DNA of 64,000 nt from positions 19,831,379 through 19,895,378 of the forward strand of contig OX235263.1 of NCBI GenBank assembly GCA_944472135.2, given 5' to 3'. Source of the stretch: Trichobilharzia regenti (Eukaryota; Platyhelminthes; Trematoda; Strigeidida; Schistosomatidae). Numbering within the stretch: position 1 is the stretch's first letter; each line of letters begins with the position of its first letter. Both the position numbers and the translations under genes were made by a program. This document shows positions 9,466 to 36,500 of this stretch, one piece after another. The notes beneath the pieces were generated by a model. That model searched no databases, had not been told where the DNA came from, and saw only the letters and a list, made by a program, of their open reading frames with translations.

Positions 9466-9605
9466 CTGATATTGGTTGGAGAACCACTGGAAAACCTGGG
9501 AGTACTGCACAGCTGTTTCGCCCTAGTTTGGGACTCTTCAACAGTGAGCATCCATCGGGATTCGAACCCAGGACCTTCTGTTTACAAGATGAGCTAGCTC
9601 GAAGA
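9466..9605 (-). repeat. SINE1 copy next to the left duplication edge
   Basis: Minus-strand SINE1 with the 3' body GAGAACCACTGGAAAACC (antisense), a hammerhead-like CTGTTGAAGAGTCCC ... GCGAAAC segment and a B-box region (GATTCGAACCCAGG, antisense). Its head ends only a few bases before the left-arm boundary at 9611. Confidence 0.75.
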
Positions 9606-10146
9606 CACTCAAATTTCTCTCGTTGTTAGTGATTAATGCTTGTTGCTGTTGTTTGATTATATTCTTCACCTTCGTCTTCTCTTGAAACTTCTACTGCGAG
9701 TTAATTGCTTTTCTCCTATAGCGCTTCTAATTCGTTTGACATTAGACAAAAGTCATCCAAGAAGTTCTGATCATTATATCAGCCCAAAGTGTGCTTGTCT
9801 TCTAGCTCTTTTGCTCACTGACTGCTGTACAATCCAGTCAGCAAAATTTGGAGATATAACCGGTTATAGTATTTAGCTTTATCTTTATACAATCTTCACT
9901 TTGCAGCCTTCGATGAATTTTCCACCAGCGATCACTTGACACGTGAGATTAAATAAATAAAGAGGGTAAAGTGGACACAGTAAACTTATTTCTCCTAATA
10001 CTTATGGACAGAAAAGGCCTCATTTTCACCTACCTGTTATAAGTACTGGCTATCATGATGCTTTTCATTAGGTGGGAAAATAATTTCGAAAGCGCTGGCT
10101 TATATAGAGATACAAAAAGCAATGAAAAATGAATTACAGAACCAAC

Positions 10147-10259
10147 CTCATTTCGCTGACTTTCTTTTAAGTACTGAGCAACGTAATGTCTTTCAAGAGT
10201 CCATGGAAATATATCTCTCAATCGTTTGATACAAAACGCCGAGAATTTCGGCCTCAGCT
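10147..10259 (-). pseudogene. Antisense copy of M13 peptidase exon 8
   Basis: 113 nt, identical by eye to exon 8 at 34875-34987, with the same TTAG acceptor and GTTGGT donor. It encodes the same residues (for example [14 protein letters not shown]) but lies on the opposite strand, upstream of the gene and without partner exons. Confidence 0.85.
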
Positions 10260-10494
10260 CTAATCAGAATAAACAAGACACAGAAATGTTTCAGCATATA
10301 CATCAAATTGAAACATGTTAGGCAAAGGATTTTTAACGAACAAGTTAGTAAGATATCACACGTACACCATGGACTTCTACCACAATATGTATCATGAATA
10401 ATGAACACAGATCAATCTTGAAGTAAATCGATTCCCCACATAAAACGCAATTTACTTCACTTATCATCAAATAAAAACGATAGTCGTAACGTAC

Positions 10495-10648
10495 GTGAGT
10501 CATCTCAGCATTTGCACTTTCGGAACTTTTTACTTCAAAATCAATAGTGTTAGCCTGATACGCCATGAAGTCCATGATAGCCATATTCTGAATTGTACTG
10601 TCGAAAGGGAATAAAAGTAAATATTGTGATTCAGTTTCAGCTGTAAAC
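10495..10648 (-). pseudogene. Antisense copy of M13 peptidase exon 7 (1-nt deletion)
   Basis: 154 nt against 155 nt in the gene. One G is lost near the donor (GAGATGACTCAC here, GAGATGGACTCAC in the gene), which shifts the splice phase. About six other substitutions are visible. The acceptor and GTACGT donor sites persist. Confidence 0.8.
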
Positions 10649-11224
10649 CTTTTATGAGTATTGCATATAACTTCAAATATCGTATGATTCTCTATTTGAA
10701 CAGTGGAAAAGTAGGTGATGAAGTCAAGAATATCTCGACTTGTCAGTGTGGGGGATGGAAACTAGTCGAACATCCTGGAATAATACAGAAGATATCAAGT
10801 CGAAATGATTTTGTGGAGTCGTATTTATCTTTGTGTCATTCATGGGGGTTAACATTCCGTGGTTATACAGTATATTTGTGAACAAAATACATTTTAAAAT
10901 TAAAGCGTTTGCTGTACAAAATGAAGCCAGCACAGTCTTCGGAGAAAAGTCAATTGTGAAATTTACAGTCGAGGAATAGAACAAACCTTATTGGAAATAT
11001 CTGGTATTCAAACTCATGTTACTTAGAAAATTTCAATGTAAATAATGAAAAGCCTGTAAAATTGAAAATTCAAATATTCAGAGTTTGCTTGCAGAAATCA
11101 TTCAACAACCTAGTCCATCAGATCGGTTGTGATAACAAATACTCTTCCATAGCATCTACTCATGTCAATTGCACTAAAAACACGACATGGTAGAAGAAAC
11201 GATTTCTTAAATTAAAATAACGAA

Positions 11225-13288
11225 TCACGGAAAATACCCATTGAGTCATGAAGAAAATAAAAGACGGATTCAGCGAAGAAAATTTTCTTTATCGACGAAA
11301 TCATCTTCAGAGGCTGTACAGTCGTATTTATACTTAGAAGAATGTATAGTGGTCTATTATTGAATAATAGGGGGTGACATAATTGCTGTAATTAATCATA
11401 AGTGGCTTTAGAGGTGAAAATTAAAAGTTGTAAATTACATGGTACTTGACGGAACAAAGATAGAAGTTAGAAAAGGTTAAAATTGCTCTTGAGTGAGAAT
11501 AAAGTTATTAGAGTGTCAATTTAACAAGTGTGAAGAAGGTGTGAAAATATATGAAATTGATAATAGTGAATTAATTATTAAAGCAAAAGCAAACTAAAAG
11601 TAAAATTAAAGATTAAGAACAAAATCAAAAATATTTTACAGGGAAGGATAAGTGAAGAGGTTAAGACCAAGGTAGAATAAGAGACTGGACAAACTTTTTC
11701 TGTATACAGAGATCAGGGTTGTATTGATGTATTGCCAGCGCCTCCGCCATACACAAAAGCCGGAACCTGACGCCTTTTGTACAATTTGGCTTCACTTTGT
11801 AGATGATGTTGAAAGACGACTCTGGTGGAGCTACGTGGCCTGAGTTCACCAAATGCTCGAGAATTGAGCTAGTAATTGTCTTGTATTGTCCCTTTGCTAA
11901 CCATGCCGGATAATGTTCAGAGATGCGTTTGGAAAGCGTGCGCTTTGTGCGGCCAATATAACTTGCTCCACACGAGCATGTGAATTTATAAACACACATT
12001 GAGGTGGCCCAAAGCGGCAGCTTATCCTTTACACATCCGTTGATCATTCGTCGGCTGTAGAAATTGATACGTAGCTCAGCCATAAAGAAGGCTTTCCTCA
12101 GTGATCTGCGTAAGCGATTCTTCAAGATCTCAGCTGCAGTATCACCTTTAAATTCAACACTCATAAAGAGCAGTTTCTTCGGCACAGTCTGAATTCTTTC
12201 GGGCTTTTCTCTTAGCTTCATGTTTTTCTCGATGAATCTTGGAGGATATCCATTCTCTAAGAGAACTTGTCTGAGTCGCTCCAATTCCCCATCGATTGTA
12301 TCACTTGAACATATCCTCCTTATTCTTGAGGATAAGGAATGGATCAAATTTCTCTTTCTTCTTAAAGGGACCCAGCTATGGAAATTTGTGTACTGACCAT
12401 TCCATGTTGGTTTCCTGTAGATCGATCTTTGAAGAGAGCCATCAGATCTCCTCTTTAGAAAAACATCCAAAAAGTGGAATTCCGAGTTAATCTCTGATTC
12501 CGACGTGAATTTGATGGCATGATGGCAGCTGTTGAACTCATTAGTTATCAATTCGACGTCAGTATTGTCGTCACATATGATGAAGGTATCATCCATGTAT
12601 CTTAGGTACAGATGGAAACTGTCGATAGTAGGCCATAAAATACTATTCTCCAAACTGGCCAAGAAGCAATCTGCAAGTAAAGGACCCAGTGGTGACCCCA
12701 TTGCTACTCCATCTCTTTGTCTATAAATCGTGTTGTTGAATTTGAATTGGACATTTAGAGTGCACCTCAAAAGTAGTTCCTTTAAGTAGTGTATCGGAAC
12801 ACATACGTCCACATTATTATCTTCAATGAATTTGCATAAAAAGCAGATAGTTTCAGTGAGGGGAACGTTGGTGAAAAGCGAAGTAACATCCATAGATATC
12901 ATTTTCTTCCCAGATACATTAGCATCATTTATTGAGTCGACGAATTCAAACGAATCAGAAACACTATGCTTGCAGAGATTATTTCTGATAGGTAGGAGGA
13001 TTTCTGTGAGCCATTTGGCAGTAGCATGATATGGAGAATTTTTCATGTCCAGGATTGGACGTAGTGGCACGTTCTCTTTGTGCACTTTTGGCAGACCATA
13101 TAAACGGGGAATCACGGAACCGGAGGGTCGTATTTGCTCGAATAATTCAGAGCTAATAATCGATTCGTTCTTCATATTCTTCAGCATTTGTGTTATCTTG
13201 CTTTCAATTTGTTCCGTTTGGTCTTTCTGGCTACTTTCTTTTGAAAATTTGTTTTCATCTGACAAGACTGATAACATTTTATCGATGT
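11225..13288 (-). mobile_element. Penelope-like element 2, 5'-truncated insertion with TSD
   Basis: A 2064-bp insertion in the left arm, flanked by perfect 11-bp copies of AAAATAACGAA (11214-11224 and 13289-13299). The right arm has the uninterrupted site at about 33911 (ACTTCGTTATTTGAATTT). One long open frame encodes RT plus GIY-YIG, followed by about 435 bp of 3' UTR. The reading frame runs out of the element into the flank at the 5' end, so the copy is 5'-truncated. A related 3' UTR occurs at 54640-54890. Confidence 0.9.
11661..13288 (-). CDS. PLE2 reverse transcriptase / GIY-YIG endonuclease, 5'-truncated
   Basis: About 540 residues belong to the element; the apparent Met at 13304 lies in host flank, and the first internal Met is at 13277. 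Domains in order are [32 protein letters not shown] (first catalytic Asp), [23 protein letters not shown] (catalytic pair), [16 protein letters not shown] thumb, CVYKFTCSCGASYIGRTKR with ISEH (GIY-YIG nuclease), and a conserved end around CIQKKFVQS. No stop or frameshift was seen. The N-terminal PLE region is missing. By eye it is roughly 60% identical to PLE1, so a different subfamily. Confidence 0.88.
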
Positions 13289-13338
13289 AAAATAACGAAG
13301 TCACTTGTTGAACAAATCTTCAGGCGACCTGATTAGAC

Positions 13339-13532
13339 TGTGAGTCGGTGGTACAGTGGTTAGAACTCTCGCCGACCATGCACATGGTCCGAGGCTCGAT
13401 CCCCTACCGACTCACACCTGATAGCAATCGTCGGCCTGAAAAATTTGCGCTACCGATATCACATGCTGAAAGTTGCATACTTGTACCAAAAATACAGTGT
13501 GCAATCAAGCTGTAATCAAAAATAAAATAAAA
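13339..13532 (+). repeat. SINE2 (tRNA-derived), left arm copy
   Basis: The head is tRNA-like: GAGTCGG pairs with CCGACTC across about 70 nt, with an A-box-like GGTACAGTGGTTAG and a B-box-like GGCTCGATCCCC. A body with TGATAGCAATCGTCGG and CACATGCTGAAA follows, then an A-rich AAATAAAATAAAAAATAAAA tail. The same element lies antisense at 33660-33866. An independent copy is at 44350-44565. Confidence 0.7.
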
Positions 13533-13539
13533 AATAAAA

Positions 13540-13735
13540 GTTGGAATTCATTGGCTGGCCACTGATTCGGTTCGCAGTGGCTGAATTTTCTACGAGCTTA
13601 GCTTGTACCCAGAAGGTTCTGAGATCGAACCCTATCAGTGGGTACACACTGCTGAGTAGTCCTAAACAAGGGTGAAACATCTGTCCAATAAGTTCAGATT
13701 TTCTACGTTTCTCTAAGTGATATAAATCCATGAGT
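13540..13735 (+). repeat. SINE1 copy, left arm
   Basis: Plus-strand SINE1 with a head reading CAGTGGCTGAATTTTCTACG and a hammerhead-like CTGCTGAGTAGTCCTAAAC ... GTGAAAC segment. The equivalent right-arm copy is 30477-30672 on the minus strand. Confidence 0.65.
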
Positions 13736-13891
13736 CCACTTTATCAGGAAAATATCGACCGTTTTCAGACTAAAAAAAAACACATTTTAACGCACTTTAT
13801 AGAAAGTGAAGAAGTCGCACTATATCCAGTGAAGCATGTTTCAACAAAATATTTCTTCAGTTCCATTCAGTGAAAGTAATGTGAAACTTAC

Positions 13892-14000
13892 CTTTTACCA
13901 GTAGGCGTTGACAGTTCAATTTCATGTAAGGCACACTGATGTTGCAGCGCTGTTGTGTCCGCAATACTTATTGAGAATGATCTGTAATGTTCGAATCCAT
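13892..14000 (-). pseudogene. Antisense copy of M13 peptidase exon 6 (40-nt deletion)
   Basis: 109 nt against 149 nt in the gene. The missing 40 nt lie between two TGGATT repeats in the intact copy (30167-30315), so the loss probably came from slippage between them. The frame is shifted and soon stops. The GTAAG donor and the acceptor remain. Confidence 0.85.
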
Positions 14001-14105
14001 CTTAACATGAATGTAGCAAAACACAAACGATTAATAAATTCGGCAGATTTAACGAAAGTGATGTGAATTTTACAGACGACTATCGAATATAATTATTTAA
14101 GTGTT

Positions 14106-14270
14106 GGGTTTTACGGATGTGGTTGGTTACAGGAATCACCATGAGCTGACATTAGTTAGAGAACCACTGGAAAACCTGGGAGTACTGGAAAACTGTTTCG
14201 TCTTAGGATCGGACCCTTCAGCAGTACGGAACCACAGCCAGGGTTCGAACCCAGGACCTTCTGGTTACAT
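14106..14270 (-). repeat. SINE1, truncated at the inner edge of the left arm
   Basis: Matches 29893-30062 of the full SINE1 at 29700-30066, but stops at GGTTACA, where homology with the right arm ends and a TATACATATATA stretch begins. Confidence 0.75.
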
Positions 14271-14437
14271 ATACATATATATTCTGTTTAGTAACTATGG
14301 TTATTTTTGTGCACTAACTAGCTAGTCCCGTTATGCTAACTTTTATATTATGTGTAAACTAATATTACTGTCCTGTGTAGAAATGTTCATCATCTAGTTC
14401 CAAAGATATTAAAATTCATAATTGTAGTTTGTTGTAA

Positions 14438-14776
14438 CTACACGTTTAAAGAACTTAAAATGTCTATGTAGGGTGAAAAAGAGGGTGTAAGAGTCAGACG
14501 TAGAAGTGCATTGTCATCTTTGAGCAGTCTGGTGACTGAGGAGATGAACACTGGAAGTGTGTTTGCATCGCGCACATTAGCTGGTAGTCTATTCCAAATG
14601 ACTGAAAACTTATTTAAGAAGAAGTTGTACCGCACGTAAGTCTGACAATGCTCTATAGCAGTGAGGTTGTGATGATTTCTAAGATTGTAACTGATGACAG
14701 CGGTAGGTTTAGTTATTGGCTTGCAGGAGTGCAAGAGAAGATTAGTTAGCTTGTAGTAAAAAATTAGGTTTGGCAT
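14438..14776 (-). pseudogene. CR1/Jockey-like LINE C-terminal region
   Basis: 112 residues in a frame shifted from the RT. YNLRNHHNLTAI, YVRYNFFLNKFSVIWNRLP and FISSVTRLL are typical of the cysteine-poor C-terminus of these LINEs. It ends 40-50 bp before the 3' end of the element. Confidence 0.7.
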
Positions 14777-14887
14777 AAGACGTCTTTTCTAGAGTGGTTC
14801 TAATCTTAGTCTGTTGCATCGCTCATAGTATTCCAGACCACTTTCTAAACCAAGAATTCTTGGGGTAAACTGCCGTTGCACTCCCTC

Positions 14888-15754
14888 TTATTTAAGCTTG
14901 TCACTTTGTCTGAGTCCGCTAAAAATAAACGGGCAGTATTCTAAGGTAGGTCGGACACATACTTTGTATAATAAAACCCTAGTTTCACAACAAAAGAAAT
15001 TGTGTGCTATGCATCCTAGCAGCCTTCGTGTTTTACGTCTGGCATGATCAGTCTGTTCAGCGAACGTTAAGTTACTAGAGTATCTAATGCCGAGATCTAC
15101 GACTGAGTTGAGCTTGGGTAGTTTCCGCCCATTTATTTCAAGAGTTAGATCAAGGTTACTGTTTCCGATACAAATCCAGCCGTATTTGTCAATGTTAAAA
15201 TTTAGACAGGATTCAGCACACCACGTTGCAAGGCTACTTATTTCAAGATGTATTTTAGGAAGCATATCGCCCAATTCATGAGTGTAGCAGGAGTAGATGA
15301 CTTTGAGGTCGTCAGCATATAGGAATGGTTTACCTGAGGTGAAACACTTGCAAATGCTGTTAATGTAGACTGTAAATAAAATTGGCCCTAGGACACTACC
15401 TTGCACAACCCCACTTGAGATCTGCCTAGGATGAGACAATACAGATCCAACTTTGGTTACTTGCACCCTGTTGCTAAGAAATGATTTTAACCAGTTCAGT
15501 AATGGGTTGCGAATTCCACATGAGTACAGCTTCTCAAATAGAATACTGTGAGATACCATGTCAAATGCCTTAGATATATTGAAGTAGAGAACAACGACTA
15601 GCTTACGTGCTTCGCGACCACTAGTGATGCAGTTGAAAAAGTCAAAGTGACAAGTAACGCAGGATCTATTTTTGAGAAATCCGTGTTGAGACCTTGTAAC
15701 AAGATCTTCCCTAATTAGGTAGTCTGACAATTGATCTTTTACAACTTTCTCCAC
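14888..15754 (-). pseudogene. CR1/Jockey-like reverse transcriptase
   Basis: 288 residues of LINE reverse transcriptase, which would prime cDNA synthesis at nicked target DNA. Visible motifs are SQHGFLKNRSCVT, VVVLYFNISKAFDMVSH (first catalytic Asp region, with N in place of the usual D in LDFSKAFD), SSGVVQGSVLGPILFTVYIN, FLYADDLKV (catalytic pair) and a LGIRYSSNLTFAEQ / RRLLGCI downstream motif. The Asn for Asp substitution and the downstream frameshift suggest a dead copy. Confidence 0.82.
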
Positions 15755-17104
15755 GATTCGTGAGATAACTGGGGTTATATTTATGGGTCTGTGATTACGG
15801 ATGTTTGCCTTATCACCAGATTTGTAGTGTGGAATTATGAAGCTAGTTTTTCAGTCACTAAGGTAAGTGCCAGTGTCCATTGATATTGAGAAGAATTTAA
15901 GAAGTAACAGGGGTATACGAATTCATTCCATACAGCTTTTTGTCAGAATTATTGTTTGCTTAAATCTCAGCTGTACATTCAATAAATATGTCAACCCAAA
16001 AAACACAAAGTGGATGAATGAAACAAGTTTCAAAGTCTTTTGCTCACAATTCAAATCTGATATCTCTCAGTGCAAATTATGATTTACCATGGAGCACAAT
16101 AACAGTGAGCATATATAGTTTTATGATTTTTCGAACGGCTTGGAAATTCCAAGAGAAAATTTGTCATCATCCTATCAGTGTAAAGGTTGGTTTGTCCAGT
16201 CAGTAGATGATTCCAAAATAATCTGCTATAAGATAATGTCTGAGGCCATCCATGTTATTGTACAGATTCACTTGATGTGGAATACTGAACTTCTCTGGAT
16301 TAAAAATAATTTCATAATACCTACATTACTATTATTATATCCTTTAATTCCTAGAGGAACATAGAGCTTCAGCTGCGCGTCTCCATTGCCTTGCATTTTC
16401 TGCCAATTTTTTCACCCCGCTCCAACTCTGCCCACATGCTTTCATCTCCTCTTCACATCACCTCCTCCAAGTCACCCTTGCACTGACGACCAACTCGCCG
16501 ATTCCCTTTCGGGTACCACTCTAGCGACGGCTTGTCTAGTGATGTCACTTGATGGTTTCCTCAGTGCATGGCCAGCCAATCAATCTCCATTTCTTCCTGC
16601 CTATTTGTTTCACAATCAGCTCCAGCTGGGTCGGTTTACTCATTGCCAGACATCTCACCCTGTTTCTGATCTTTTCTGGCCGGCCATCTTATACCGAGTA
16701 TTGAGCGAAGACAACTGTTAATGAAGGTCTGAAGTTTGTTTGAGATGCTCTTTATGACACGCTGGCCAAGTCTCTGATCCGCCTGGTGAGTAGCACTGAC
16801 TCACTTCACATTGGAGTTGAAAATTCGGATCTTATTTTCATTTCCATGCTGAGTGCTGTTGACCTCCTGGACACAGACTTCAGAGTAATGAAAGCTTGTC
16901 TTGCTTTTCCGATCCGCGCTTTGATATTCTCGTCATTTCCTGGCGCCTGTAGTTGAAACGATGCTTCCCACGTAGGTAGGTAGGTGAAGGAGGTTGTTTC
17001 TTTCAGGTTCCTCCCATTTATGCTGGCTGATTGTTGTCTGTTGTTGTTGTTGCTATGGCTGTTGGTGTTGGCCAGGAATCTTCATCACTCTGTTTTCTCT
17101 GTGT

Positions 17105-17470
17105 TCACCTAAAGTGATATTCTATCTTTGATGCTTCTTCTGCCAGCTTGTTGCTTTTCACTTGCATATCTTCCAGTTTGTGGGAAATCAGACATAAATT
17201 ATAATCATAGGCGAAGTCCAGATCCTCCAAGTCTCTTTTTGTGTGAGTTAATTTTATGCCTGTTTCCACATTGTCCGTTGTCAGTCTCATTATCCAATCA
17301 GGAAGATCATTGGCGAAAGTAGACAGCTTTGTCTCACTCCCGTCCTCACTTCGAAGGCTTCCGTAAGTTTCCCGTTGTGGATTACTTGGCATGCAGCATT
17401 GTCGTACAACTGTTGGATGAGATGTATAATTGTCGATGGGACCCCGTAGTAGCGAAGTAGTTGCCAAATC
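17105..17470 (-). pseudogene. RTE-like reverse transcriptase palm, broken
   Basis: Two overlapping frames share the palm. One reads [29 protein letters not shown] and RTGVRQSCLLSP in pieces. The other reads DLEDLDFAYDYNLCLISHKLEDMQ, where the usual catalytic box FADD is mutated to FAYD. The element cannot be autonomous. Confidence 0.7.
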
Positions 17471-17532
17471 ACCTTTCGATCGACGCTGTTGAAGGCCTTT
17501 TCAAAGTCAATGGAGTTGAGATAGAGAGGTGA

Positions 17533-17991
17533 CTACCATTCCAAGATTTGTTCAATGATGATTCGTAGAGTGGTGATTTGATCAGTACATGACTTGTTTC
17601 TCCTGAATCCAGCTTGTTCCGGTCGAATTTTTTCATCTAGGTTGGCGTGTTTGATTCTCTCCAGGATGATACGACTTAATATTTTGCTTGGGATGAACAG
17701 GAGCATAATTCCACGCCAGTTTTTGCATTGACTTAAGTCTCTTTTCATTGGTAGTTTGAACAAGTATCCTTTCTTCCAATCCTCGGGCACTTTGCCCTCT
17801 TTCCACACCTTATCCGGTAGTGGCGTCACCAAGTCCGTTGTTGTCTCTGGGTCCATTCCTAATGCTTTCGCTGAGATTCCATCTGGTCCTGATGCTTTTC
17901 CAGCTTTTAGCATCTTGATTGCATTGACATTATTACATAATAAAACTTTTATTACACAAACTTTGTTTATGTAATAACGATGACCTTTCAT
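17533..17991 (-). pseudogene. RTE-like reverse transcriptase, N-terminal half
   Basis: 152 residues: KAGKASGPDGISAKAL, VWKEGKVPEDWKKGYLFKLP, CKNWRGIMLLFIPSKILSRI, and RPEQAGFRRNKSCTDQITTL. This is the conserved block ahead of the first catalytic Asp. The frame ends with a stop just before SIDFEKAF-like coding, which continues in another frame towards 17470. Confidence 0.8.
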
Positions 17992-18560
17992 ATTTTGGCA
18001 ATGAAGAGACTTTGCATTGTTTAAATCACGCCAGCCTGGTAGGTGAAGAATGAAGATGAAAAGAAAACAATTTCCGTTAACTAATCACCCTCATAAACAC
18101 GTTGTGTGTTGCTGATTTTGTTGACTTAACCGGCATGAGTCTAATTAAAATCATGAATATACAATGGACTTCTAAGTATTCACCTAGTCGCTTTGTTTAA
18201 TAACGTCTCACATTTGCAATTATCGTATTTCCACTCTGTTCTTTTGTCTATTGATAAAAGAATGTTTAGAAAGTTAAGTATGCTGAGGTTATCGCTAATA
18301 TACTTGCGTGGATATGGTTTACAGAAAGTATTTAGTAATATTCATTAAAATAAATGATCTGATGTTAAACTGAACATCTTCATTGGTAATTTAGGTGAGA
18401 TATGTTTGCTGACTGAGTATAAAAGCGAGGTCTATGGTTAGAATTGTTTTATTGACGTTATTGAAAGAGAATGAATATTATAGTCTTGATCAACAGAATT
18501 ACGGTGCATACTGGTACTTCCTTTAAAATTCAAGACTATTCATTCCAATTTTATTTACAG
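17992..18560. other. Spacer upstream of the first recognised M13 exon
   Basis: AT-rich and mostly without open frames. Apart from the weak TATA/ATG lead at 18418-18503, nothing gene-like was seen. The missing 5' exon(s) of the peptidase may be here or further upstream. Confidence 0.4.
18418..18503 (+). promoter_or_regulatory. Weak candidate for promoter/first exon of the M13 gene
   Basis: TATAAAAG at 18418, an ATG at 18434 and a possible GTGCAT donor at 18504 would give a first coding exon ending with 1 nt, matching the phase of the next exon (57-nt intron). Against it, the ATG is only about 10 nt from the TATA-like box, and the peptide is not a clear signal or anchor. Treat it as a lead only. 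Confidence 0.18.
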
Positions 18561-18593
18561 TACTCCTTTATTGTGCATTGTGTTCCTGCAATG
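18561..18593 (+). CDS. M13 exon a (33-nt micro-exon, tentative)
   Basis: Sits between TTATTTACAG and GTAATT. Read with two bases completing a codon, it gives [10 protein letters not shown] and a final single base that forms Ala with the next exon. The resulting C--CNAIS ... IDPC spacing resembles the paired cysteines at the start of M13 ectodomains. Its small size makes it less certain than the others. Confidence 0.5.
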
Positions 18594-21500
18594 GTAATTT
18601 AACTTTCTTCATGCTTTAAATTGATAATGTTTATGTGTTTCATAAGTTCTTCCTTTTGCGATTATATATGTACATATATTAAATGTGAATGTGTAATTTG
18701 TGAATCTCTTCAGTGGGTACATCTAGATTCCTCCTAAACCATCCTGAACGATACTCATTATTCAGCTTTGGATGACTGTTGTACTGAAATGAGAGTTTCG
18801 GTATAAATAACAACTGTCACACATGCATCATGTATGCGCCTGCTTCATCTTCTTACGTAAGCCTATTCTTTCAAGAGGTAGTTTCAGGGGATTCGGTTTA
18901 TTTCAAATCTGATCACCAGCTGACGTCAGTTAGAGTACCGTTGGAAAAACAAGGAAGCACTAGACAGCTGTTACGTCCTAGTTTGCAAACCTTTAGCAGC
19001 ACTTAAGAACTAGAGTTCGAATCCAGGAACTTCAAGTAAGAAGGCAAGCTCATAGACCATTCAGCCACCACGATCTGATCTAATGCCACATGAATTCCGA
19101 GTTCTACAAATTCGTGACTTTAGCACGACCAACAGATAGACGAACGGCTACAAGATGACGTTGCCTGCAGTTCTACCGCGAAGTCTCTCTCTCTCTCTCT
19201 ATAAATATATATATATCACGAATTCGCAGAATTTGGAATTCATGAGCTAATCACTAAATCGGGTCACAGTGGCTGAATGGCCTATGAAATTGCTTTCTCA
19301 TATGAAGATCTTGGGCTTGGACCCGTTGGGTGTGCAATACTGAGGAGTCCAAAACTAGGAATAAACGGTTGTCTAGTACTCTTTAATCTTCTGAGGATTC
19401 CCTAACCAATGTTAGCTCGTTATGAATGTTGAAATAAATCTTTTATCTAACTCTTTACACTGTTCCAATCATCCCATTTCATACTGACACATTTTTAACT
19501 CAGTTAACATAATCTAAAATACACAGTATGATTTTATTTTGTCACAATTATAATCGAAGATACTTTTATGAAATGCAGTCAGTCAACTTCCTTTATATTA
19601 CACTGTTATCATATAATAATTTCGATTTCAACGTTAGCATGTTGAGCCTTATGTTTTCCACGGATTGATGCAATGAACACATACAACTAAAGTTGTGTGG
19701 AAAGATATTGATTAATTTATTCATTACACTATTACATTCCAAGTGGAACACAGGGCCTTAAGCTCCAGCTATTAAGTTTCGGTAGCACTAGTTTTTCTAC
19801 ATAGTGCTGACTTAACCTTCCGTCTTTGTCCGGTTTACAACTGGCTAATGGAGGTAAAGGTGTACACCGGCTGGGAACCAAAGCTTGGGCCACGTGCATG
19901 GTCAGCGAACATTCTATCGATGAACCACGGACGCAAAACGTGGAGAGATAAGCTAACCTAGATTCGCATTTCATTTCAATGAGGTACAAGTAGCACGTAG
20001 AGCTTCTAACTTTGAATTCTATTCAGTGCTTGCAGTGTTTTCACAGAGAGGATTTCCTTATATCACTCACAAACACCTCATTTAACGGCCTCAGTACTGA
20101 ATAAAAAGGTTTCACGGTGACATGACTGTGTGTAGAACTTAGACCGATTGCGTAGTTCAAGAAAATCCTACCGTTAAAAAAGCCAGGTTACTGAATTACC
20201 CTCCATTTTACTAAATTCAGAAAGGCGACGAAGACACACAGAAATTAAATTATCAGAAACTGTTGACTGAAATAAAACTACTTCTTCCATTATCACTATC
20301 ACTTTTCTCATTTATCAGTTTATTCATGACAAGAAAACAGCACATCGATTGACTCATCATGAACAAATCAGTTTACTTAAATTTGTATTTACTGTCACTT
20401 TCGTGATGAAGTATCACGTGTATGATTGATACCCACTGATCTCCAGCAGATTTTAGCTTGATGTGATGTGTGATGCCAGTCGCGTCATGGTCTTTGGCAT
20501 TGATGAGAAAAATCAGCCATTCACTCCGAAGTGGGCGGAAGTCTTCCGAGTGTATACCTGACCTGTGCACTTGGACTGCCTGAAGCATCTTTTCATAGAT
20601 GATGAGATTTCAATGCGTGTGTTGTGAAACATTCTCTGTGAGGTGATGACTGAATCGATTGTCAGTTATTGTTTAGTGTATACACCATGGAAGGAGTAAA
20701 TTCAGTTGTGATAGGTTTCAGTTGTGCGCTTTTTGGATATGGTGAGAATGCAAGTGTGAACCAATAATCAACAAGTATGTCGGCCCATCGATGGATGACA
20801 CCAACTGATACAACTTCGGGAGTTTTCTGGTTTTCTGTGTTCACTTATTGGTCCATAATTGATTTCTTCTCTGCTCTCCTTTATTTTTGTTTGTATTCCC
20901 GCTTTTAATCTCATGCTAGTGTGAATATTTCTCCCTTGTAGCCATTTCTGTGAGACAGAGTTATAATCGTACGAATGCCGTTTCACTGATTGACCCATGT
21001 AATGACTTCTATCAATATGCTTGCTCTGATTGGAAAAATAATCATGCTGTTCCAGAAGGCGAGTTGAGCATCACGAGCATATTGCAAATCCAAAATAATA
21101 CACTTCATGACATCTGGAAAATAATTGGTAAGAAAGATATATTTCATAATGAACTCACAATGATTATATTATTAATCTCATGGGTTCCGAGGAGAGTATC
21201 GGGTTTCACTAGTACATATACATCTAACCCTTTTCTCTGCAATATTTTTCAACTGGCTACACGAGTAACCATAAGCTTTCATCTGCTCATCAGACGATCA
21301 CATCCATGTCTTTTTATCAATCAACGCTCAACTCACCTTTCCATAAACATGTTACAATCGAGGGCCTTTTTGGAGTACTATTATACTCGAACATCGCCAT
21401 AAGCAGTGCAGCCAGTGCATATTCATTTTCTTTCGCACATTAGTTCGCTGACAGGTTCTTTGTTGGTTCATCGGCTGCCAGAGTTCGTTGTTTCTAATCC

Positions 21501-24500: not shown

Positions 24501-27500
24501 ATGTCCCTCTAGGAATTAAAGGATATAATAATAATTGACTAAACTGAACATTAGGTTCGGATTAAATAGGCTGACTTCGAATTAAACAACAACAACTTCT
24601 TGTTAGGGGTAAGCTAGAGTCATCGTTTAATTCATCGGTTTCTCTTCAAGGAACATAGAAATCGGTTACGTATTTGCAAAGATGGCATGATGTCAACTGA
24701 CAGGAGACATTAAAATCCATAAACAGCACTGAGAACTTACATTTGTTTACCTTATACACAGAATGTCAAAATCTAAACGAAACAAAGTCTATAGAAATTG
24801 ATTTGTCTGAGAATTGTTACCACAATCCATAGAGACGTTTTGGAAATATTTAGTACTTCATATATACAAAGGTGTGCATAAATGTCAATTACTGTATAAT
24901 TGAACAGGTGGATCAACCTCTGTTCAGGTAAGGAAATTCAAAAGCTCTGGATCTCGTCATTCAATGAGTCCATAAACATCTTCAGAAAACAAAGTTATCA
25001 CCCTTCAGAAGACGAAAAGTGTTTCAGCAGTGAGTCAATGAAGTCAAGGAGAGGCCGGGCATAGGAACAACTTTCAGAAAAACGATAGTCAGTGTTAGAC
25101 ACTTGAAGTGCCTAAAGAAATTTTTTTTCTTTCCTACATGTTAGTTACTATTATCGGTTTACTTAATTCTGATGCATGAAATAGCAGTTGCGAAAATGGA
25201 TATCCTCTAAATTCCTAATTGCTTTAGATTTCAGATGGAAAATTCGCTTCGTATAAGGACGCTTGTGAAACAGAGGTAATTTCCCAAAAAATTTTCATTA
25301 ATTCAATCAATGCTAACCAAATAGGCAGGAGAATAACAATTTTGTGCAATGAATAATAGTTAAACAATATTAATGGATCAATCAGTCTGAATGACTGGTC
25401 CGTTGCAAATAAAACACTTTGTGACAACTTTTAGTTGAAATCCACTCTTTAGTCACTTTCACCTACTGACTGTGTTTAAAATGATGTTTAAATTACTTCG
25501 GTAACACTGGTTGACTTGACTTACACTAGATGACTTGAGATCACACGTCAAAGAAACCTCCAGCAGGGGTATGGAATGACTGATCATCTTGTGACATGGG
25601 CATTTCTAAAGTTTAACACTGATTGCTCTCGAATATTTCATAAAATTCTGAAAACAGCAGATTTCAAATTCCTCACAGAATTCCGGTGATGTCTGAGTCA
25701 GTCAACAGGAATTTAAGCTGCCTTACTTCAGATGAATCACGCGATAATATCCAAGTTTAATCAGAAACAGTGAAATAAAATATTATATCATTCACACTGG
25801 TGAAGTCGCTACAACAGCGAAAGTCGACGAAATGAAGCCTTTTATCACGAGTGAATTCATACTCGATTTCAAGTCGAATGTTAATTTCTCTAAATTAATC
25901 TGGTCTGCCAATGTGATTACAAATTTGAAATGAAAAAAGCCATTGAAGTAAATTTGTCAATGAAGGGGACTCTTGAAATTTTAATCCACTTAGTTCACTC
26001 AGTTGCACATGTCAAAGTACTCATTGTTTGAAGAGGTACATACTCTCACTTCAATTGATGCACATATCAAATTTCCAGAATTACCGACTTAATCATGTAT
26101 TGCTTTTGTAGGGATTTAGTTTGATTGCATGGAGGATTTAATCATGAGCTGACATCAGTTAGAGAACCACTGGAAAACCAGGGAGTACTGGACATCTGTT
26201 TCGTCCTAGTTTGGGAATCTTCAGCAGAAGGTCCTGGGTTCGAATCCGGTGGGTGCGTACTGATGAAGAGTCCTAAACTAGGACGAAACAGCTGTTCAGT
26301 ACTCCCTGGTTTTCCGGTGGTTCTCTAACTGATGTCAGCTCATGATTAAATCCTCCATGCAATTAATCATGTATCTTTAAAATCAGTGAAATCTGCTGAC
26401 TCATCATACACATATATCATAAATGTAACTGTGCATGCAGAAGAGACTGAATTAAAATTTCACTAAATTCAGTCTATTTTTTGCTTGGGAAACCATGAGT
26501 TCATTTGACTATAATGATGAATACCATACAATGGCAACAGTGATAGCTTCATTGTGAAAAGTCCACTTAGACACAATACAGATTCCTCAACACATTTTAT
26601 AGCAAGATATTCATTCCTTGTGCATAATCTTCAAATAATACAATAACCGATAATATGTCATCTGAAGCACTATCGTTCCACGCGAAGCATACTCTGGTAC
26701 GAATCCATGATGTAATTCCCTCATTTCCTACAAAACATCCCCAGCTATTGGCAGGAACTTGCTTGAAATTATACATAAGTATAGACTTCAACTCTTTGAG
26801 ACAACAGGATGAGTAAAACAATAAGAAACGGAGTGAGTACAATTCATGATGGATAGTAAATTTTGCTAGTTCAATGATTTAAACAGGCCTCCTTCAGATA
26901 TAACCACTTCTACTCATTAAAGTATGAAATATCAGCAAAATACATATTTTGAAGTGTCACGCACGTTATGTAACATCCAAGAGTTGGTTTGTCAACTAGC
27001 TTTTCTGTGTGTCTCTTAGGAAAATGCTCTGAAATGACGTGAGAATAGTCTTGTTTGATGTTTTTTTCATGAGACAGATATCTTTGATTTCGCATTGTAT
27101 AAGAATTCATGAATATTTTAAGTCATCGTGTTTTCTTTAAACAGGTGGATGCTGCAAATATTGCTCCAAAGTATTACGAATATGCATATAAACTGGGAGT
27201 ATCTCCAACCGAAAAGAGCAAGTTGAAAGCTGCTTTTGAATTGCACACACGCTTGTGCCGTGTAAGTTTTCCGTTAATCTTGGAACTTTAACATAGCTAT
27301 GGAATGTGAATTTCATTTGGTAGTATATACGTATGTATACTCGATTAAAATGCAAGTTGTTTAGCTCAACAACAGTAGTGTGATGAGTATCTGAACCCAC
27401 TGTGAAGCAAAACAAATCGTTAATCGAATTTTCTATTTATTCTTGAGCGCGCTGATTGAAGACTATCAGTATTCTGTGCAATCTGACCACTAGACTAAGT

Positions 27501-30500
27501 TATACGACATAAATGTGCATTATCACTGATCAGGATTTGAGATAGAACGTTGTACGTGTCAACAAACATGAGAGTCGATTTTTTATCATTCACTAAGTAA
27601 GCTCATGATATTTTCGATAAGTTCCATTTGAAATTTGTTGTGTCGGGAAACAAACAGACACCTGAATTTCTTAAGTGGAAAGGAGAATTGCGTTTGAATA
27701 GAGTCATTGTATGGCCATATTCTTTTTGAAAAAAATGCGATAGCTTCATCATGACACATTTTATCATTACACCTCTTAAATAAAACAAAATTGAATTTAT
27801 TTACATTGTGATACTCTTATTACTGGGGAAGCGTTAATGCCAACAAACTCTAGTCTTAGAATGACTGTATCCACAACAAGGATAGTGAAGGGAGTTATTA
27901 TCACTGAACATTCGAATGGATTGTAACAGAAAATCAGCATGCAATAGCTGAATCGATCATTGCATTTATTCCATGAATGCTGAAAACGAAGAGTATTCAA
28001 CCATTGTGAATCACATAAAATACTACTGAAATGTTGAAGCGCATTGTAAACAACATAAAACACCGTGATGTGGTAGGATCTTCTCAAAATCTGTTTGCAT
28101 ACCTATTCTGAAATGATAGTGAAGTAAGAGGTTGCGTTTCGTCGCCTTCATGGCTAAGTTGTTCATTCTTCTATCAAGGAAACATGATTTAATTTAATGA
28201 ATATTTCTGATTACTTTCCAGAATCTGTATTTTTCAAAGAAATCTGACCTTACTGATTATCATAAAGAGGTTACAATGAATGAATTGAAGTCAATCTGTC
28301 CATTGGTAAGTAGGTACAGCCAATTTATACATTTCGTAAATTTCAATGTACAATGTACATAGGACCTCAAGCTAGTGGCTTGAAGATTATGTAGCAGTGG
28401 TGATTATTTTTGCAGGATGGGGTTGCTAGCATGCCTCATGCCCAACTTTTTCTCTTTACCAGCATTATTTCGGGCTTAGCGAGGTAAAGGAGTACTTCGG
28501 TGGCCGGGGACCGAACCCTGGACCATGTGCATGGTTGACGAGCGTCCTAACCGCACATTTCAATGTACATACTTTGATTTTTCAATACTTCACAATGCCA
28601 ACTCATTAGGTAGGAATGTCACGGTTGAGGTCATTTATAGATAGAAATATTGAAATAAAAATGGTGAATTTCTGAGTCTGTCTTACAAGAGATTAAGTGT
28701 CTGAAAATGTGTAACGAGGCATTCATTATACAAACTGTATGAGCTTTTAGCATCAGATAATTTTACTTTTGTGAATGTGGATATGAAATTTAACTGAGTG
28801 AATAGTGAACGAAGATAGTTCCATTTATGTATATGAAATTTACGTGATTCAGGTCAGGATCCATATGAAGCATGCAAAGCGATGAAGTACTCCAACTGGA
28901 GAAATTTCTGATTTATTCGAATTCGGGTCAACTATCATTGCTGACTATCTAGTTCTAAGGGAATTATGAACATCAAATAGACTGGCCAGCAATGTTGGAT
29001 GACATGTGTCAGGGGTGTCAGGCTACTTACATCGGTCAACGGTATCTGACATCTTGTGCTTTCGTTTTCTTTATTTACTTGTGCATTTGACCGTGTCGAT
29101 TAGGTGATATTGTTTTGATTTGGAGATTGAAGATTATGCGACTTAGAGGAATTCCAGCTCATCTAAACACGTTCCAATATTTCAAATGACTTCAGACAAC
29201 ATGCGGTGCCTTCAGTGGAAGAAATTGAAATAATCCCCATTGAGAATTGGAAAAAGATAAGTCAGTGTTAGGACAGAATGCATAATGTAATCAGTCAAAA
29301 ATGTCCTGCATTTAGTAGTCACATAGTTGATGAATGATGATGATGGGTAGGAGACTTTCAGTCAGCTGTGAAGATAAAATTGTTTGAGAGTAAAAGAGAA
29401 ATGAATCTGCAAAATCTAGACCAGTAGAACGAAATTTTGCGATCTGACAAACTCTGCATAGTTGTTTCTCTAATCTCGCAGCATCATATTTCTTGTTTAA
29501 AATGATAAGGAAAACTGTTTAGAGGAATTTTAACTCAGAAATCGTCTGTTTTTGTACACTGTATTCTTTGAATATTTCCCAGAACACCATCGGTCCAGCA
29601 CCCTAGTCTAGTAATGAAACAAAATGAACTATCTACTTAGTAATTATTCTTAGGCTGTAGATACCCTCCTTGAAGTTTCATTGTGTAACTCACTAGCGGC
29701 TTGCCTTATTCAGGTAAGTAATTAACTGGGATTCTAGTGAGAAGTCGTGACCAGTAGGGTGTAGCAGGTCGGGTATGAGGACAAATACGTGCCTAAGACA
29801 TTGACTAGGGGTCACACTATGTCGTGAATTGGTAGAAGTTAGAATTCATGGGCCACTGGATCGGGTCCCAGTAGCTTGATGGTATACGAGTTCTCCCTGT
29901 AACCAGAAGGTCCTGGGTTCGAACCCTGGCTGTGGTTGCTTACTGCTGAACGGTGCCAACCTAAGACGAAACAGTTTTCCAGTACTCCCAGGTTTTCCAG
30001 TGGTTCTCTAACTAATGTCAGCTCATGGTGATTCCTGTAACCAACCACATCCGTAAAACCCAACACTTAAATAATTATATTCGATAGTCGTCTGTAAAAT
30101 TCACATCACTTTCGTTAAATCTGCCGAATTTATTAATCGTTTGTGTTTTGCTACATTCATGTTAAGATGGATTGGGATCAGTTGTTTGCAAAATTGTTTC
30201 GACAAATTGGATTCGAACATTACAGATCATTCTCAATAAGTATTGCGGACACAACAGCGCTGCAACATCAGTGTGCCTTACATGAAATTGAACTGTCAAC
30301 GCCTACTGGTAAAAGGTAAGTTTCACATTACTTTCACTGAATGGAACTGAAGAAATATTTTGTTGAAACATGCTTCACTGGATATAGTGCGACTTCTTCA
30401 CTTACTATAAAGTGCGTTAAAATGTGTTTTTTTTTTAGTCTGAAAACGGTCGATATTTTCCTGATAAAGTGGACTCATGGATTTATATCACTTAGAGAAA

Positions 30501-33500
30501 CGTAGAAAATCTGAACTTATTGGACAGATGTTTCACCCTTGTTTAGGACTACTCAGCAGTGTGTACCCACTGATAGGGTTCAATCTCAGAACCTTCTGGG
30601 TACAAGCTAAGCTCGTAGAAAATTCAGCCACTGCGAACCGAATCAGTAGCCAGCCAATGAATTCCAACTTTCATTTTTTATGGAAAAGAAAAGGTGTTCA
30701 GCAAAGAGTTACTCTTTTCGGCGATATCATTCTCAAGCTGTACAAATCACAAATTTATAGTAATTTCCCTTGGCAACAAAAGGAATATTTCCAAAGATGT
30801 GTTAATGCAATTGTTAATTTTTGACAAACAAATTACGTAATTTAGAAGGCGTTAATCGGTTAGAAACTAAAATAAAGTTACAAAAGTAGGTTGGGTGACG
30901 TAATCTAATTGATAGGGTTCAATGAACTACACTAAACACACACTAAACGACACACACTAAACAACATTGACTCCATCCAATCACGCATCCCTGAACTAGA
31001 ACGAAATGTTGACTTACGAGCTCACGCAGTCCACGATTTAGACCAAGAACTACGCCAATCGTTCGAAGAATATGTCGAAGAAGTTGCACAGAAACAATGT
31101 GAGAATGCCAAGTCAAACCTTATTAAAAGCCTGAAGCCGACGAGCGACCCTGAACGTCCATTCCCAAGCAATCCAAAAAAATACGTATTTAACCTGTCAA
31201 ACATTGAGCTGTCAGAACTTCAACTAGAAGCACTGTCCCTCGGTCCAAAGTTCTGCACAAAACCATCAAAAATCCAAAAACTTCAATCCCAAGTCCAGTT
31301 CGAAAACCTGATAAACCAAACATATGATCTATCACCAACTTCCGAAGAGAACCTGCAACAGTTCAGGTCGGTAGTACTCGACAGTTGCCATAAATTTATG
31401 AATACCAAACCAAATGGAAAGTCAATACTGACCAAAAAACACTATAAAGAGCTCAAGGAATTAATAAACAACAAAGAGATTATTCTGTTACGCCCGGATA
31501 AAGGTGGGGGAATCGTAGTCATGAATCGTGAAGACTACGTAAGTAAAATGCTGACCATCCTATCCGACGAATCTAAATTCATAAAACCAGCAAAGGAAAA
31601 GAACATGACGGAACAAACTGAACAAAAACTAACGAACCTTCTCCGAAAACTAAAGACTGAATCATTCATCGATCTCGAAACCTTCGAATCGTTGAAACCG
31701 TCGGGCTCAAATATACCCCGGCTATATGGACTACCAAAAGTGCACAAGAAAAACGTACCTCTTCGACCCATTCTCGATATGACTAATTCACCTTATCACA
31801 GTACCGCACAATGGCTAGTAAACATACTAGAACCAGTCAGAAAGCAAATCTCCCGCCACTCACTTCGAGACTCCTTCGATTTTGTCAATTCCATTGAAAA
31901 CGTCAGCGTTTCCAATCAAACCATGTTCTCACTAGATGTGGTATCACTGTTTACAAACGTCCCACTAACCGAAACAATATGCTATATATGTGAATATATT
32001 GATTCAAAGGAGATGAACATTGGTATACCCACTGACTATTTGAAGGAACTCCTATTAAGATGTACTCTAAACGTCCAATTCACTTTCAATAATGAAATAT
32101 ATAGACAAAAAGATGGTATAGCTATGGGCTCACCACTCGGCCCGCTGCTTGCAGATATTTTCATGTCAAAACTAGAAAATACACACCTAAAGAAGATAAT
32201 AGATAACTTCGGATTCTACAAGAGATACGTGGACGATACTTTTATTATCGCCAATAATGAGGAAAATTTGGAGAACATATTGGACTTCTTCAACAGTTGC
32301 CATCCAGCAATCCAGTTCACACTAGAGAAGGAGTCCAACGCAACAATATCTTTTCTGGACGTGCAACTAGCAAGACGCGAACAAGATGGGACACTCAAAA
32401 GATCCATTCACAGAAAACCGACATGGAATGGACAACTCATCAGCTTTCACAGTTGGGTGCCTATATATACAAAACGAAATCTGATCCGCTCACTGACTCA
32501 CAGAATCCACAACATTTGCAGTCCGGAAACTATAGAAGAAGAGCTGAAGACCCTGAAAAGAATCCTTCTTGAAAACGGTTACCCGGAACGTTTCATCACA
32601 AAAGCTATGAAGCCCAAAACACAAAAACCATCCATGCTTACTGCTCCCAAGAAACTTCTCTATTTGAATCTACAATTCAACGGAGATTCTTCAGCAGAAA
32701 TACTGAGAAACCGCCTGTGCCGTTCACTGAAGAAAACCTTCTTCGCAGCGGAACTCAGACTAACTTTCTCTACGAAACCAATGATTCGCACGAACGTGAA
32801 GGATAAGCTTCCACTGGGGGCCTCATCAATGTGCATCTACCAATTCACCTGCTCATGTGGAGCTAGGTATGTCGGCCGTACCCAGCGTTTGCTATCCAAA
32901 CGAATCAGCGAACACTTACCTTCATGGTTTTATAAAGGAGAAAGAAGATCCCCCCGCCACAGCTCTATCCTAGAACACTTGATCGAATCCGGACACCAAG
33001 CAAACCCACAAAACAACTTCTCAGTTATCTACACAATACGTGGGAATCTTGCCAAAAGAGTACGAATTAAACTTCTTCAAACTGCAGAAGCAATGGCAAT
33101 TCACATATTGAATCCTGAACTCTGCATACAAAAGAAGTTTGTTCAGTCACTAAATCTACAATGGTCCTGATCTATCTTAACACCAAATACGTAATTTTGT
33201 CTTACCTCTTTCTTCTTTGTTTGTCTATTTCTTAATTGCATTATTTTCTACCCCCACCCTCTATTAAATCTCTACGCTCATGACGACTGTTGCTAACTCG
33301 ATTTTCGTTTATTTTTAAGTGAATTCTACTCAGCTTATTAACTTAACTCTCATTCATTTTCAAGTGAATTCTACTCAGATTATTAACTTGACTCTCATTC
33401 ATTTTTTCATTGAACCCTATCAATTAGATTACGTCACCCAACCTACTTTTGTAACTTTATTTTAGTTTCTAACCGATTAACGCCTTCAAAATTACGTAAT

Positions 33501-36500
33501 TTGTTTGTCAAAAATTAACAATTGCATTAACACATCTTTGGAAATATTCCTTTTGTTGCCAAGACAAATTACTATAAATTTGCGATTTGTACAGCTTGAG
33601 AATGATATCGCCGAAAAGAGTAACTCTTTGCTGAACACCTTTTCTTTTCTATGACTGAATGGGAATTTTATTTTTTATTTTATTTTTGATTACAGCTTGA
33701 TTGCACACTGTATTTTTGGTACAAGTATGCAATTTTCAGCATGTGATATCAGTAGCCCAAATTTTGCAGACCGACCATTGCTATCAGGTGTGAGTCGGCA
33801 GGGGATCGAACCTCGGACCATGTGCATGGTCGGCGAGAGTTCTAACCACTGTACCACCGACTCACAGTCTAATCAGGTCGCCTGAAGATTTGTTCAACAA
33901 GTGACTTCGTTATTTGAATTTAAGAAATCGTTTCTTCTACCATTTCGTGTTTTTAGTGCAATTGACATGAGTAGATGCTATGGAAGAGTATTTGTTATCA
34001 CAACCGATCTGATGGACTAGTTTGTTGAATGATTTCTGCAAGCAAACTCTGAATATTTGAATTTTCAATTTTACAGGCTTTTCATTATTTACATTGAAAT
34101 TTTCTAAGTAACATGAGTTTGAATACCAGATATTTCCAATAAGGTTTGTTCTATTCCTCGACTGTAAATTTCACAATTGACTTTTCTCCGAAGACTGTGC
34201 TGGCTTCATTTTGTACAGCAAACGCTTTAATTTTAAAATGTATTTTGTTCACAAATATACTGTATAACCACGGAATATTAACCCCCATGAATGACACACA
34301 GATAAATACGACTCCACAAAATCATTTCGACTTGATATCTTCTGTATTATTCCAGGATGTTCGACTAGTTTCCATCCCCCACACTGACAAGTCGAGATAT
34401 TCTTGACTTCATCACCTACTTTTCCACTGTTCAAATAGAGAAGCATACGATATTTGAAGTTATGTGCAATACTCATAAAAGGTTTACAGCTGAAACTGAA
34501 TCACAATATTTACTTTTATTCCCTTTCGACAGTACAATTCAGAATATGGCTATCATGGACTTCATGGCATATCAGGCTAACACTATTGATTTTGAGGTGG
34601 AAAGTTCAGAAAGTGCAAATGCCGAGATGGACTCACGTACGTTACGACTATCGTTTTTATTTGATGATAAGTGAAGTAAATTGCGTTTTATGTGGGGAAT
34701 CGATTTACTTCAAGATTGATCTGTGTTCATTATTCTTCATGATACATATTGTGGTAGAAGTCCATGGTGTACGTGTGATATCTTACTAACTTGTTCGTTA
34801 AAAATCATTTGCCTAACATGTTTCAATTTGATGTATATGCTGAAACATTTCTGTGTCTTGTTTATTCTGATTAGAGCTGAGGCCGAAATTCTCGGCGTTT
34901 TGTATCAAACGATTGAGAGATATATTTCCATGGACTCTTGAAAGACATTACGTTGCTCAGTACTTAAAAGAAAGTCAGCGAAATGAGGTTGGTTCTGTAA
35001 TTCATTTTTCATTGCTTTTTGTATCTCTATATAAGCCAGCGCTTTCGAAATTATTTTCCCACCTAATGAAAAGCATCATGATAGCCAGTACTTATAACAG
35101 GTAGGTGAAAATGAGGCCTTTTCTGTCCATAAGTATTAGGAGAAATAAGTTTACTGTGTCCACTTTACCCTCTTTATTTATTTAATCTCACGTGTCAAGT
35201 AATCGCTGGTGGAAAATTCATCGAAGGCTGCAAAGTGAAGATTGTATAAAGATAAAGCTAAATACTATAACCGGTTATATCTCCAAATTTGGCTGACTGG
35301 ATTGTACAGCAGTCAGTGAGCAAAAGAGCTAGAAGACAAGCACACTTTGAGCTGATATAATGATCAGAACATCTTGGATGACTTTTGTCTAATGTCAAAC
35401 GAATTAGAAGAGGTACAGGAGAAAATCAATTAACTGGCAGAAGTAGTATCAAGAGAAGGCGAAATCGAAGAATATAATCAAACAACAGCAACAAGCACTA
35501 ATCACTAACAACGAGAGAAATTTGAGGGAGTTCACTGCCTTCACGTGTCTGCGAAGCATTGCCTCACCGAGAGGCGGATCTCAGAGCAAGAAGTGAAAAG
35601 GTGAAGCACAAATTCATCAATATGAAATCAGCTTAGAAATCTTCTGCACTCCACAGCATGAAAGACGATATTCATATTTTCAACACCAATGTTGTGTCAG
35701 TCAGGAAGTCACTTATTCTAATTGGATCAGAAACTTGCTCTGCGAGTCACGGAAGGAATATCTAACAGTTTACTGCAGACTTTCATCAACACCTGCCTTC
35801 TCTGGTTCCATATTGTCGATCAGAGAGCCGGCTAGAAATAATTATCGTCAAGGAAGTTTGGGAATGAACCAACCAAGAACCTGTTGCTCCACAAATATTC
35901 TGAATAGAACGAAGATGGACGGTTATACACAAGCAGGTTGATAACACCATTAAGAAACGAAAAAGGATGCTCACAGTGATGAACCATATGGGTGTTAAAA
36001 AATTAAGATTTAATACTAGCTGATATCTCTCATGCATAAGGATTCATATGGATCGATTTCACGTATGCATGGATAAGAAAAGACGACAAAAAAGGTTTTC
36101 CAGGGCAATGTATGAGACAGTCTTGGATTGCTTTTAAAGAGGAAGAAATAGAAGTGGCCGAAGCTGTCTATAAATGCTGAGTCTAATCAGGTAACCTGAA
36201 GATATTTTCAACAAGTGACTTCGTTATTTGAATCTAAGAAACTGTTTCTTTGTTTCACAGTAACCATACGACTGTCAGTCTATCCTTTAGGAGGTTCGCT
36301 CCTATTCAACACTTCTCATAGTCTTCTTTCGTTACCCGGCCGTCAGACTGCCTCCTTCACAGTTGGAATGTTTGAAACTAAGAGCTATATGACAGTGGTA
36401 AACTGAGCTTTAACTGACTTGTCATATCGTAGATATTCACTTAATATGAAGTCGCCATTCGTAGTGTGCACATCTACATTTCCTCTTGAGGATTTCTAAA

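Follow-up and report, generated by a model that had tools for sequence, protein, structure and literature searches.

The window analysed here is a stretch of 64,000 nucleotides of the Trichobilharzia regenti genome (contig OX235263.1, positions 19,831,379 to 19,895,378 of the forward strand), which contains an M13 peptidase gene and, upstream of it, an inverted copy of part of that gene. Splicing of 19 exons at GT...AG borders between 18471 and 49823 yields a product identical to the T. regenti protein P0001 over 707 of 707 residues, and 9 of the 14 protein matches are Trichobilharzia relatives, the best being P0001 itself. Pfam M13 and M13_N domains are matched in the gene, and P0001 aligns to endothelin-converting enzyme 1 (ECE-1) over residues 40-707 (E 4e-52) and to neprilysin over residues 380-707. 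P0001 and its ECE-1 alignment contain HELLH, EILSD, and a C-terminal CQVW, with HExxH, ExxxD, and a C-terminal CxxW being what we take to be the motifs of M13 (neprilysin) peptidases. On both domains and these motifs, the gene is predicted to encode a peptidase of this family. Two of its introns are very short (18514-18560, 47 bp, and 37587-37644, 58 bp), and the others range from 0.2 to 4.2 kb.

The gene and its inverted partial copy

A BLAST comparison of the window with itself revealed three inverted matches, namely, 33901-35526 with 11228-9608 (97.8% identity, E = 0), 33666-33915 with 13539-13290 (96.8%), and 29898-30681 with 14269-13527 (93.5%, with 41 gap positions, 40 of which form one gap). 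The three chain into a single pair of arms, and a seed-and-extend comparison also gave inverted pairs (I1, I2, I4-I6, I8, and I10). The features concerned are as follows.

18471-49823, plus strand: M13 peptidase gene with 19 coding exons and a coding sequence of 2124 bp including the stop codon; spliced product, P0001
29898-35526, plus strand: right arm, the source segment in the M13 gene, reaching from intron 7 into intron 10 and measuring 2632 bp when its inserted element is excluded
9608-14269, minus strand: left arm, in which the gene segment is present as an inverted copy; 2587 bp when its inserted element is excluded
14270-29897, no strand: loop of 15.6 kb separating the arms, with coding exons 1-7 of 19
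30167-30315, plus strand: coding exon 8, right arm
34533-34636, plus strand: coding exon 9, right arm
34875-34987, plus strand: coding exon 10, right arm
13892-14000, minus strand: copy of exon 8 with 109 of 149 bases left; a 40-bp deletion lies between two TGGATT repeats
10495-10597, minus strand: copy of exon 9 with 97 matches, 6 mismatches, and 1 base lost in the alignment with right-arm exon 9
10147-10259, minus strand: copy of exon 10, identical at 113 of 113 bases in the alignment with right-arm exon 10
30682-33665, plus strand: putative Penelope-like element, right arm only, with a 744-amino-acid reverse transcriptase open reading frame (ORF) at 30936-33167, 247-bp inverted repeats that are 98% alike, and an approximately 13-bp target duplication
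11229-13289, minus strand: putative 5'-truncated Penelope-like element, left arm only, with an approximately 15-bp target duplication and a reverse transcriptase ORF within the open frame 11664-13319

With the inserted elements taken out and each left-arm base used once, the arms are identical in 2538 of 2587 aligned columns (98.1%). They differ by 49 substitutions (22 transitions and 27 transversions) and four insertions or deletions, and they share nine identical runs of at least 100 bp, which total 1661 bp and reach 393 bp in the longest case. As judged from this alignment, the similarity is far above chance, and an identity no better than that between unrelated introns is excluded. The initial annotation had proposed an inverted duplication at 9611-14270 and 29893-35524, with arms that are reverse complements apart from later insertions, a loop of about 15.6 kb containing the earlier exons, and a right arm inside a working-looking M13 gene. 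All of this is borne out, including the gene, whose intact 19-exon model matches P0001 exactly; the exact limits of the arms differ by a few bases. The exons in the arms, previously numbered 6-8, are in fact coding exons 8, 9, and 10 of the 19-coding-exon model.

The left-arm exons had been described as dead antisense copies, which holds for the copies of exons 8 and 9, both frameshifted, and agrees with the absence of the rest of the gene, but the exon 10 copy is unbroken and the AG acceptor and GT donor are kept at the borders of all three. No copy of the other 16 exons was seen in the left region. With two frameshifted exon copies and 16 missing exons, the left arm is predicted to be unable to encode the gene product. 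A protein search with the joined left-arm exon translations, in which candidate lengths were limited to about 73-231 amino acids, matched three proteins, all from paralogs by sequence. Since introns 8 and 9 are retained in the left arm, it is not a spliced retrocopy, and a processed (retro) pseudogene is ruled out.

Direction, age, and proposed mechanism of the duplication

The nearest paralog of the gene is the P0008 gene at C2:20.07-20.12 Mb, 224 kb from the locus. It matches the window at 26363-30567 (92%) and 34262-35824 (81%) and thus across both right-arm breakpoints. The duplicated segment is single copy at the paralog, both in the 50 kb fetched and among the 20 genome-wide matches listed, one of which lies near 20.09 Mb. 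The outer right-arm breakpoint falls in a fragment of intron 10 that resembles a long interspersed nuclear element (LINE), and the inner breakpoint and both left-arm junctions involve elements that resemble short interspersed nuclear elements (SINEs) and belong to a family with hammerhead ribozymes.

29689-30027, plus strand: SINE-like element of the hammerhead family, 340 bp, in intron 7; it contains the inner breakpoint 29898 and lies within the stretch common to the paralog (C2:20.09 Mb)
14140-14269, minus strand: cut-off copied part of the intron 7 SINE at the inner end of the left arm, recognized by similarity
9450-9607, minus strand: partial hammerhead element, with an Rfam Hammerhead_1 match at 9502-9547, that borders the left arm at its outer end

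Both the SINE and the LINE-like fragment are continuous on the right and cut off on the left. These uninterrupted elements, the position of both breakpoints within stretches shared with the paralog, and the complete gene on the right show that the left arm is the copy and the right arm the source. In addition, the bases missing from left-arm exons 8 and 9 are present in both the paralog and a second locus, which indicates that the deletions are left-arm losses. Neither of these loci has the 3-bp difference at 34733 or the 1-bp difference at 30427, which are therefore probably right-arm gains.

Phylogenetic analysis was based on 11 rows taken from the 20 genome matches; the second pieces L019-L023 are covered by the loci of L014-L018, to which they belong, and the short or second pieces L025-L028 were excluded. 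The arms are sisters with a support of 0.996. The arm-to-arm distance is 0.009, compared with 0.060 between the right arm and the paralog and 0.16-0.17 to the other two M13 clusters; a site on C3, at a distance of 0.26, covers no more than 520 of the 1179 positions. Because the arms are 0.9% apart and the paralog 6.0%, the left arm is, by these distances, a recent copy made at the DNA level. Over 34022-35200, the left branch (0.0090) is four to five times as long as the right branch (0.0019). When 40 differences in two aligned blocks were polarized by the paralog, 18 were assigned to the left arm and 13 to the right, and 9 were undecided. The other nine lie outside these blocks, one at 33916 and eight within 33666-33915, a stretch without a collinear paralog match; for the eight, comparison by eye with one other repeat copy in the window suggests four left and two right, with two undecided.

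The substitutions are bunched. Four short stretches, chosen after the data had been seen and comprising 182 of the 2587 columns, contain 27 of the 49 substitutions, and 21 close pairs were observed against an expected mean of 8.4, a number reached in none of 5000 shuffles. After neighboring substitutions were merged, P was 0.00125 at 6 bp and 0.026 at 10 bp (4000 shuffles each). At four sites of the outer cluster, the two arms and the paralog all differ from one another. Gene conversion homogenizing the arms, which the clustering had raised, may have acted but is not needed, because the clustering is weaker after merging, changes are polarized to both arms, and distances of 0.009 and 0.060 fit a recent copy. 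The bunching may stem from multibase events, from hot spots, or from conversion by other copies.

Each inserted element has a Pfam RVT_1 match (E 3e-13 on the right and 1e-11 on the left). Pfam identifies reverse transcriptase alone, and the ORFs make both elements appear Penelope-like. Each arm shows the empty site for the insertion of the other arm, which indicates that both insertions followed the duplication. The right-arm insertion is probably recent, since its end repeats are 98% alike. Its 744-amino-acid ORF is uninterrupted and lies in intron 8 on the strand of the gene.

Both left-arm junctions involve the same part of the same element family, with an offset of about 28 bp, and this part appears to be tRNA-like. 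Rfam identified four hammerhead motifs in the window and none above its cutoff at 29898-30027. ARAGORN found no tRNA. SINE-like elements with hammerheads are known from schistosomes, where they have been described as SMalpha (PMC8490949), and type I hammerheads of animals are described as residing mostly in nonautonomous retroelements (PMC7229834). The shared junction sequence hints at, without proving, copying by replication or repair in which the two elements acted as guides. In such a process, the segment from the SINE in intron 7 via exons 8-10 to the LINE-like fragment in intron 10 would have been copied in reverse, by template switching or break repair, with the two SINE copies bringing the sites together. 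The copy lies upstream of its source gene in a region rich in mobile elements, next to a second SINE of this family. The adjacent 9000-9449 is mostly dispersed repeat: 40 of the 214 candidates were scored, and 39 of those lie elsewhere, at 72-78% identity. Afterwards, the copy decayed through exon deletions and a Penelope insertion; the gene remained intact and gained its own Penelope insertion.

Taken as a whole, the left arm is most probably (about 0.8) a nonfunctional inverted duplicate, made at the DNA level, of a 2.6-kb segment, with decay of the copy and both insertions following later and the gene remaining intact; its lack of function and the way in which it was copied are what we infer from this record. 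Several observations weigh against this account. Exon 10 and all three splice-site pairs are still intact in the left copy, and the clustered substitutions are not predicted by a uniform neutral rate. At the outer junction, inspection by eye gives no more than about one base of homology, and the SINE head to be expected after a clean exchange between SINEs is not present at the inner one. No empty target site was found, so neither junction can be compared with an ancestor. A larger duplication with ends behind later insertions was also considered, but a search of the window for the SINE head and for sequence beyond the right-arm ends found none adjoining the left arm. Retrotransposition of a ribozyme-released RNA, considered because hammerhead elements lie at both ends, was set aside, since breakpoint 29898 lies about 40 bp ahead of the ribozyme motif's position and not at the cleavage site expected for it, no target duplication or tail was seen, and the introns are kept.

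Other repeats are present in the window. Two hammerhead elements form a near-palindrome at 26121-26366, with 107-bp arms that are 93% complementary and 32 bp between them; Hammerhead_1 occurs there on both strands (26185-26230, minus, and 26257-26302, plus). A long hammerhead SINE-like element at 59953-60381 is flanked by a 30-bp exact direct repeat and contains GGTTCGAATCC, which we take to be B-box-like. Within the loop, a second inverted pair (16330-17115 and 23743-24533, 94% alike) belongs to a dispersed LINE-like repeat also found near 61-62 kb. A DUF6451 match below its cutoff was disregarded.

Other M13 clusters and alternative explanations

Two further sets of M13 copies in opposite orientation were found. 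At C2:27670001-27729000 (L029-L034), an M13 paralog faces its inverted copy head to head across a center of about 3 kb; each arm measures at least 26 kb, and the arms are 99.1-99.7% alike. The arm search matched this palindrome at 27.684 Mb (minus) and 27.710 Mb (plus). It may be a real structure or a haplotype misjoin. A cluster at C2:4.10-4.23 Mb (L014-L023, with C397) has copies at 4.113 Mb (minus), 4.147 Mb (plus), and 4.230 Mb (minus), which are 1.9-2.7% apart and were seen in short loci only. Each M13 set is closer within itself than to the other loci compared, and the three inverted sets therefore look like separate events in these comparisons. Near-identical M13 copies in opposite orientation occur at three places in the genome, and this pattern suggests that the family expands recurrently by inverted duplication.

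The palindrome raises the question of whether the left arm is what deletions have left of a once complete head-to-head gene partner, and the minus-then-plus order of two copies does recur at C2:27.68/27.71 Mb and at 4.113/4.147 Mb. This origin is unlikely, given that the arms are sisters whose divergence (0.009) is much more recent than their separation from those loci (0.16-0.17), that nothing credible of exons 1-7 or 11-19 was seen on the left-hand side of the window, and that the nearest paralog locus holds a single copy. An assembly artefact, in which a haplotype or read was joined in reverse and only one arm exists in the genome, gains some plausibility from C397, whose two copies are identical to the 4.113-Mb copy at all 1022 positions compared and may represent a haplotig or a tandem, so that the assembly may contain haplotigs. 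The 49 substitutions between the arms, the two exon deletions confined to the left arm, and the sharp junctions into unrelated sequence speak against it, and the strongest argument is that each arm has a distinct Penelope insertion with its own target duplication. Since each arm thus combines a later insertion of its own with the empty site of the other's, assembly duplication of one arm is very unlikely.

The initial annotation had also suggested that the left-arm exon copies yield antisense transcripts. A minus-strand transcript of the left arm would have the same sense as the mRNA, and an antisense RNA would need plus-strand transcription. The minus-strand elements nearest the left arm are the hammerheads at 9502-9547 (Rfam) and 14140-14269 (similarity), a reverse transcriptase ORF at 14891-15850, and the Penelope insert; reverse transcriptase-type pieces at 7043-8239 are also on the minus strand, with a Pfam match for one of the two ORFs there. 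The only plus-strand candidates seen upstream are Gypsy-like fragments at about 2.9-5.4 kb, recognized by eye. The suggestion is thus without support: nothing tested speaks for antisense RNA from the left arm, and the nearest recognized mobile elements would transcribe the gene's own sense. As flukes possess Dicer, Argonaute, and transposon-derived small interfering RNAs (siRNAs), according to studies of these animals (PMC3409120 and PMC5594548), an antisense role may be possible in principle. Plus-strand RNA from the left arm would pair with exons 8-10 of the mRNA, and Dicer-made siRNAs would damp the gene or its paralogs. The perfect complementarity of 113 bp in exon 10 and of 108 contiguous bp in exon 8 is consistent with such pairing, as are the endogenous siRNAs bound to Ago2 in Schistosoma japonicum, reported to come mainly from transposable elements (PMC3409120), and the Drosophila hairpin RNAs (hpRNAs), whose inverted-repeat arms resemble target genes (PMC10317233). 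The arms are nevertheless 15.6 kb apart and each is interrupted by an insertion, the coding start at 18471 lies inside the loop, so a transcript starting nearby would contain only one arm, and the nearest mobile elements are oriented along the minus strand; a hairpin or antisense source is therefore highly doubtful. It would be a longer shot still that the M13 family grows by repeated inverted duplication and that the three-exon copy, transcribed from the plus strand, feeds siRNAs tuning the whole family.

Comparison with known systems

The duplication is real and of a known, ordinary kind; none of the papers listed in searches of the open-access literature on Trichobilharzia deals with the locus. 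The closest known architecture is human IDS/IDSP1 (IDS2), in which, as summarized in a review, IDSP1 consists of exons 2 and 3 and pieces of introns 2, 3, and 7, lies inverted beside the gene, and has an exon 3 that is 100% identical; the table of the same review contains 130 families with recombination and inversion (PMC11610362). Like IDSP1, the left arm is a partial gene in opposite orientation near its source, retains introns, has one identical exon (exon 10), and cannot encode the product. Here, in contrast to IDS/IDSP1, the copy is located upstream, a loop of 15.6 kb separates the arms, and inversions have not been observed. The locus also resembles the int22h repeats of F8 in hemophilia A, where one repeat is located in an intron and an inverted one outside the gene, and recombination between them splits the gene; those repeats are longer and contain no F8 coding exons. 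By its coordinates, recombination between the present arms is predicted to flip exons 1-7 and to leave exons 11-19 without a start, so that a gene copy with the loop inverted would be a null allele.

As in Drosophila hpRNA loci, the inverted repeat has arms complementary to a target gene. Those loci are defined, in the account consulted, by a primary transcript spanning the hairpin and by Dicer-2-dependent siRNAs (PMC10317233). At the present locus, the target gene itself is one of the arms. The palindrome at C2:27.67-27.73 Mb likewise consists of inverted M13 copies closest to each other among the loci compared, but it comprises two genes, and the copy in the window is a three-exon fragment. 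The locus thus represents a flatworm instance of an IDS-type inverted partial pseudogene, with an order of events built in by two later transposon insertions.
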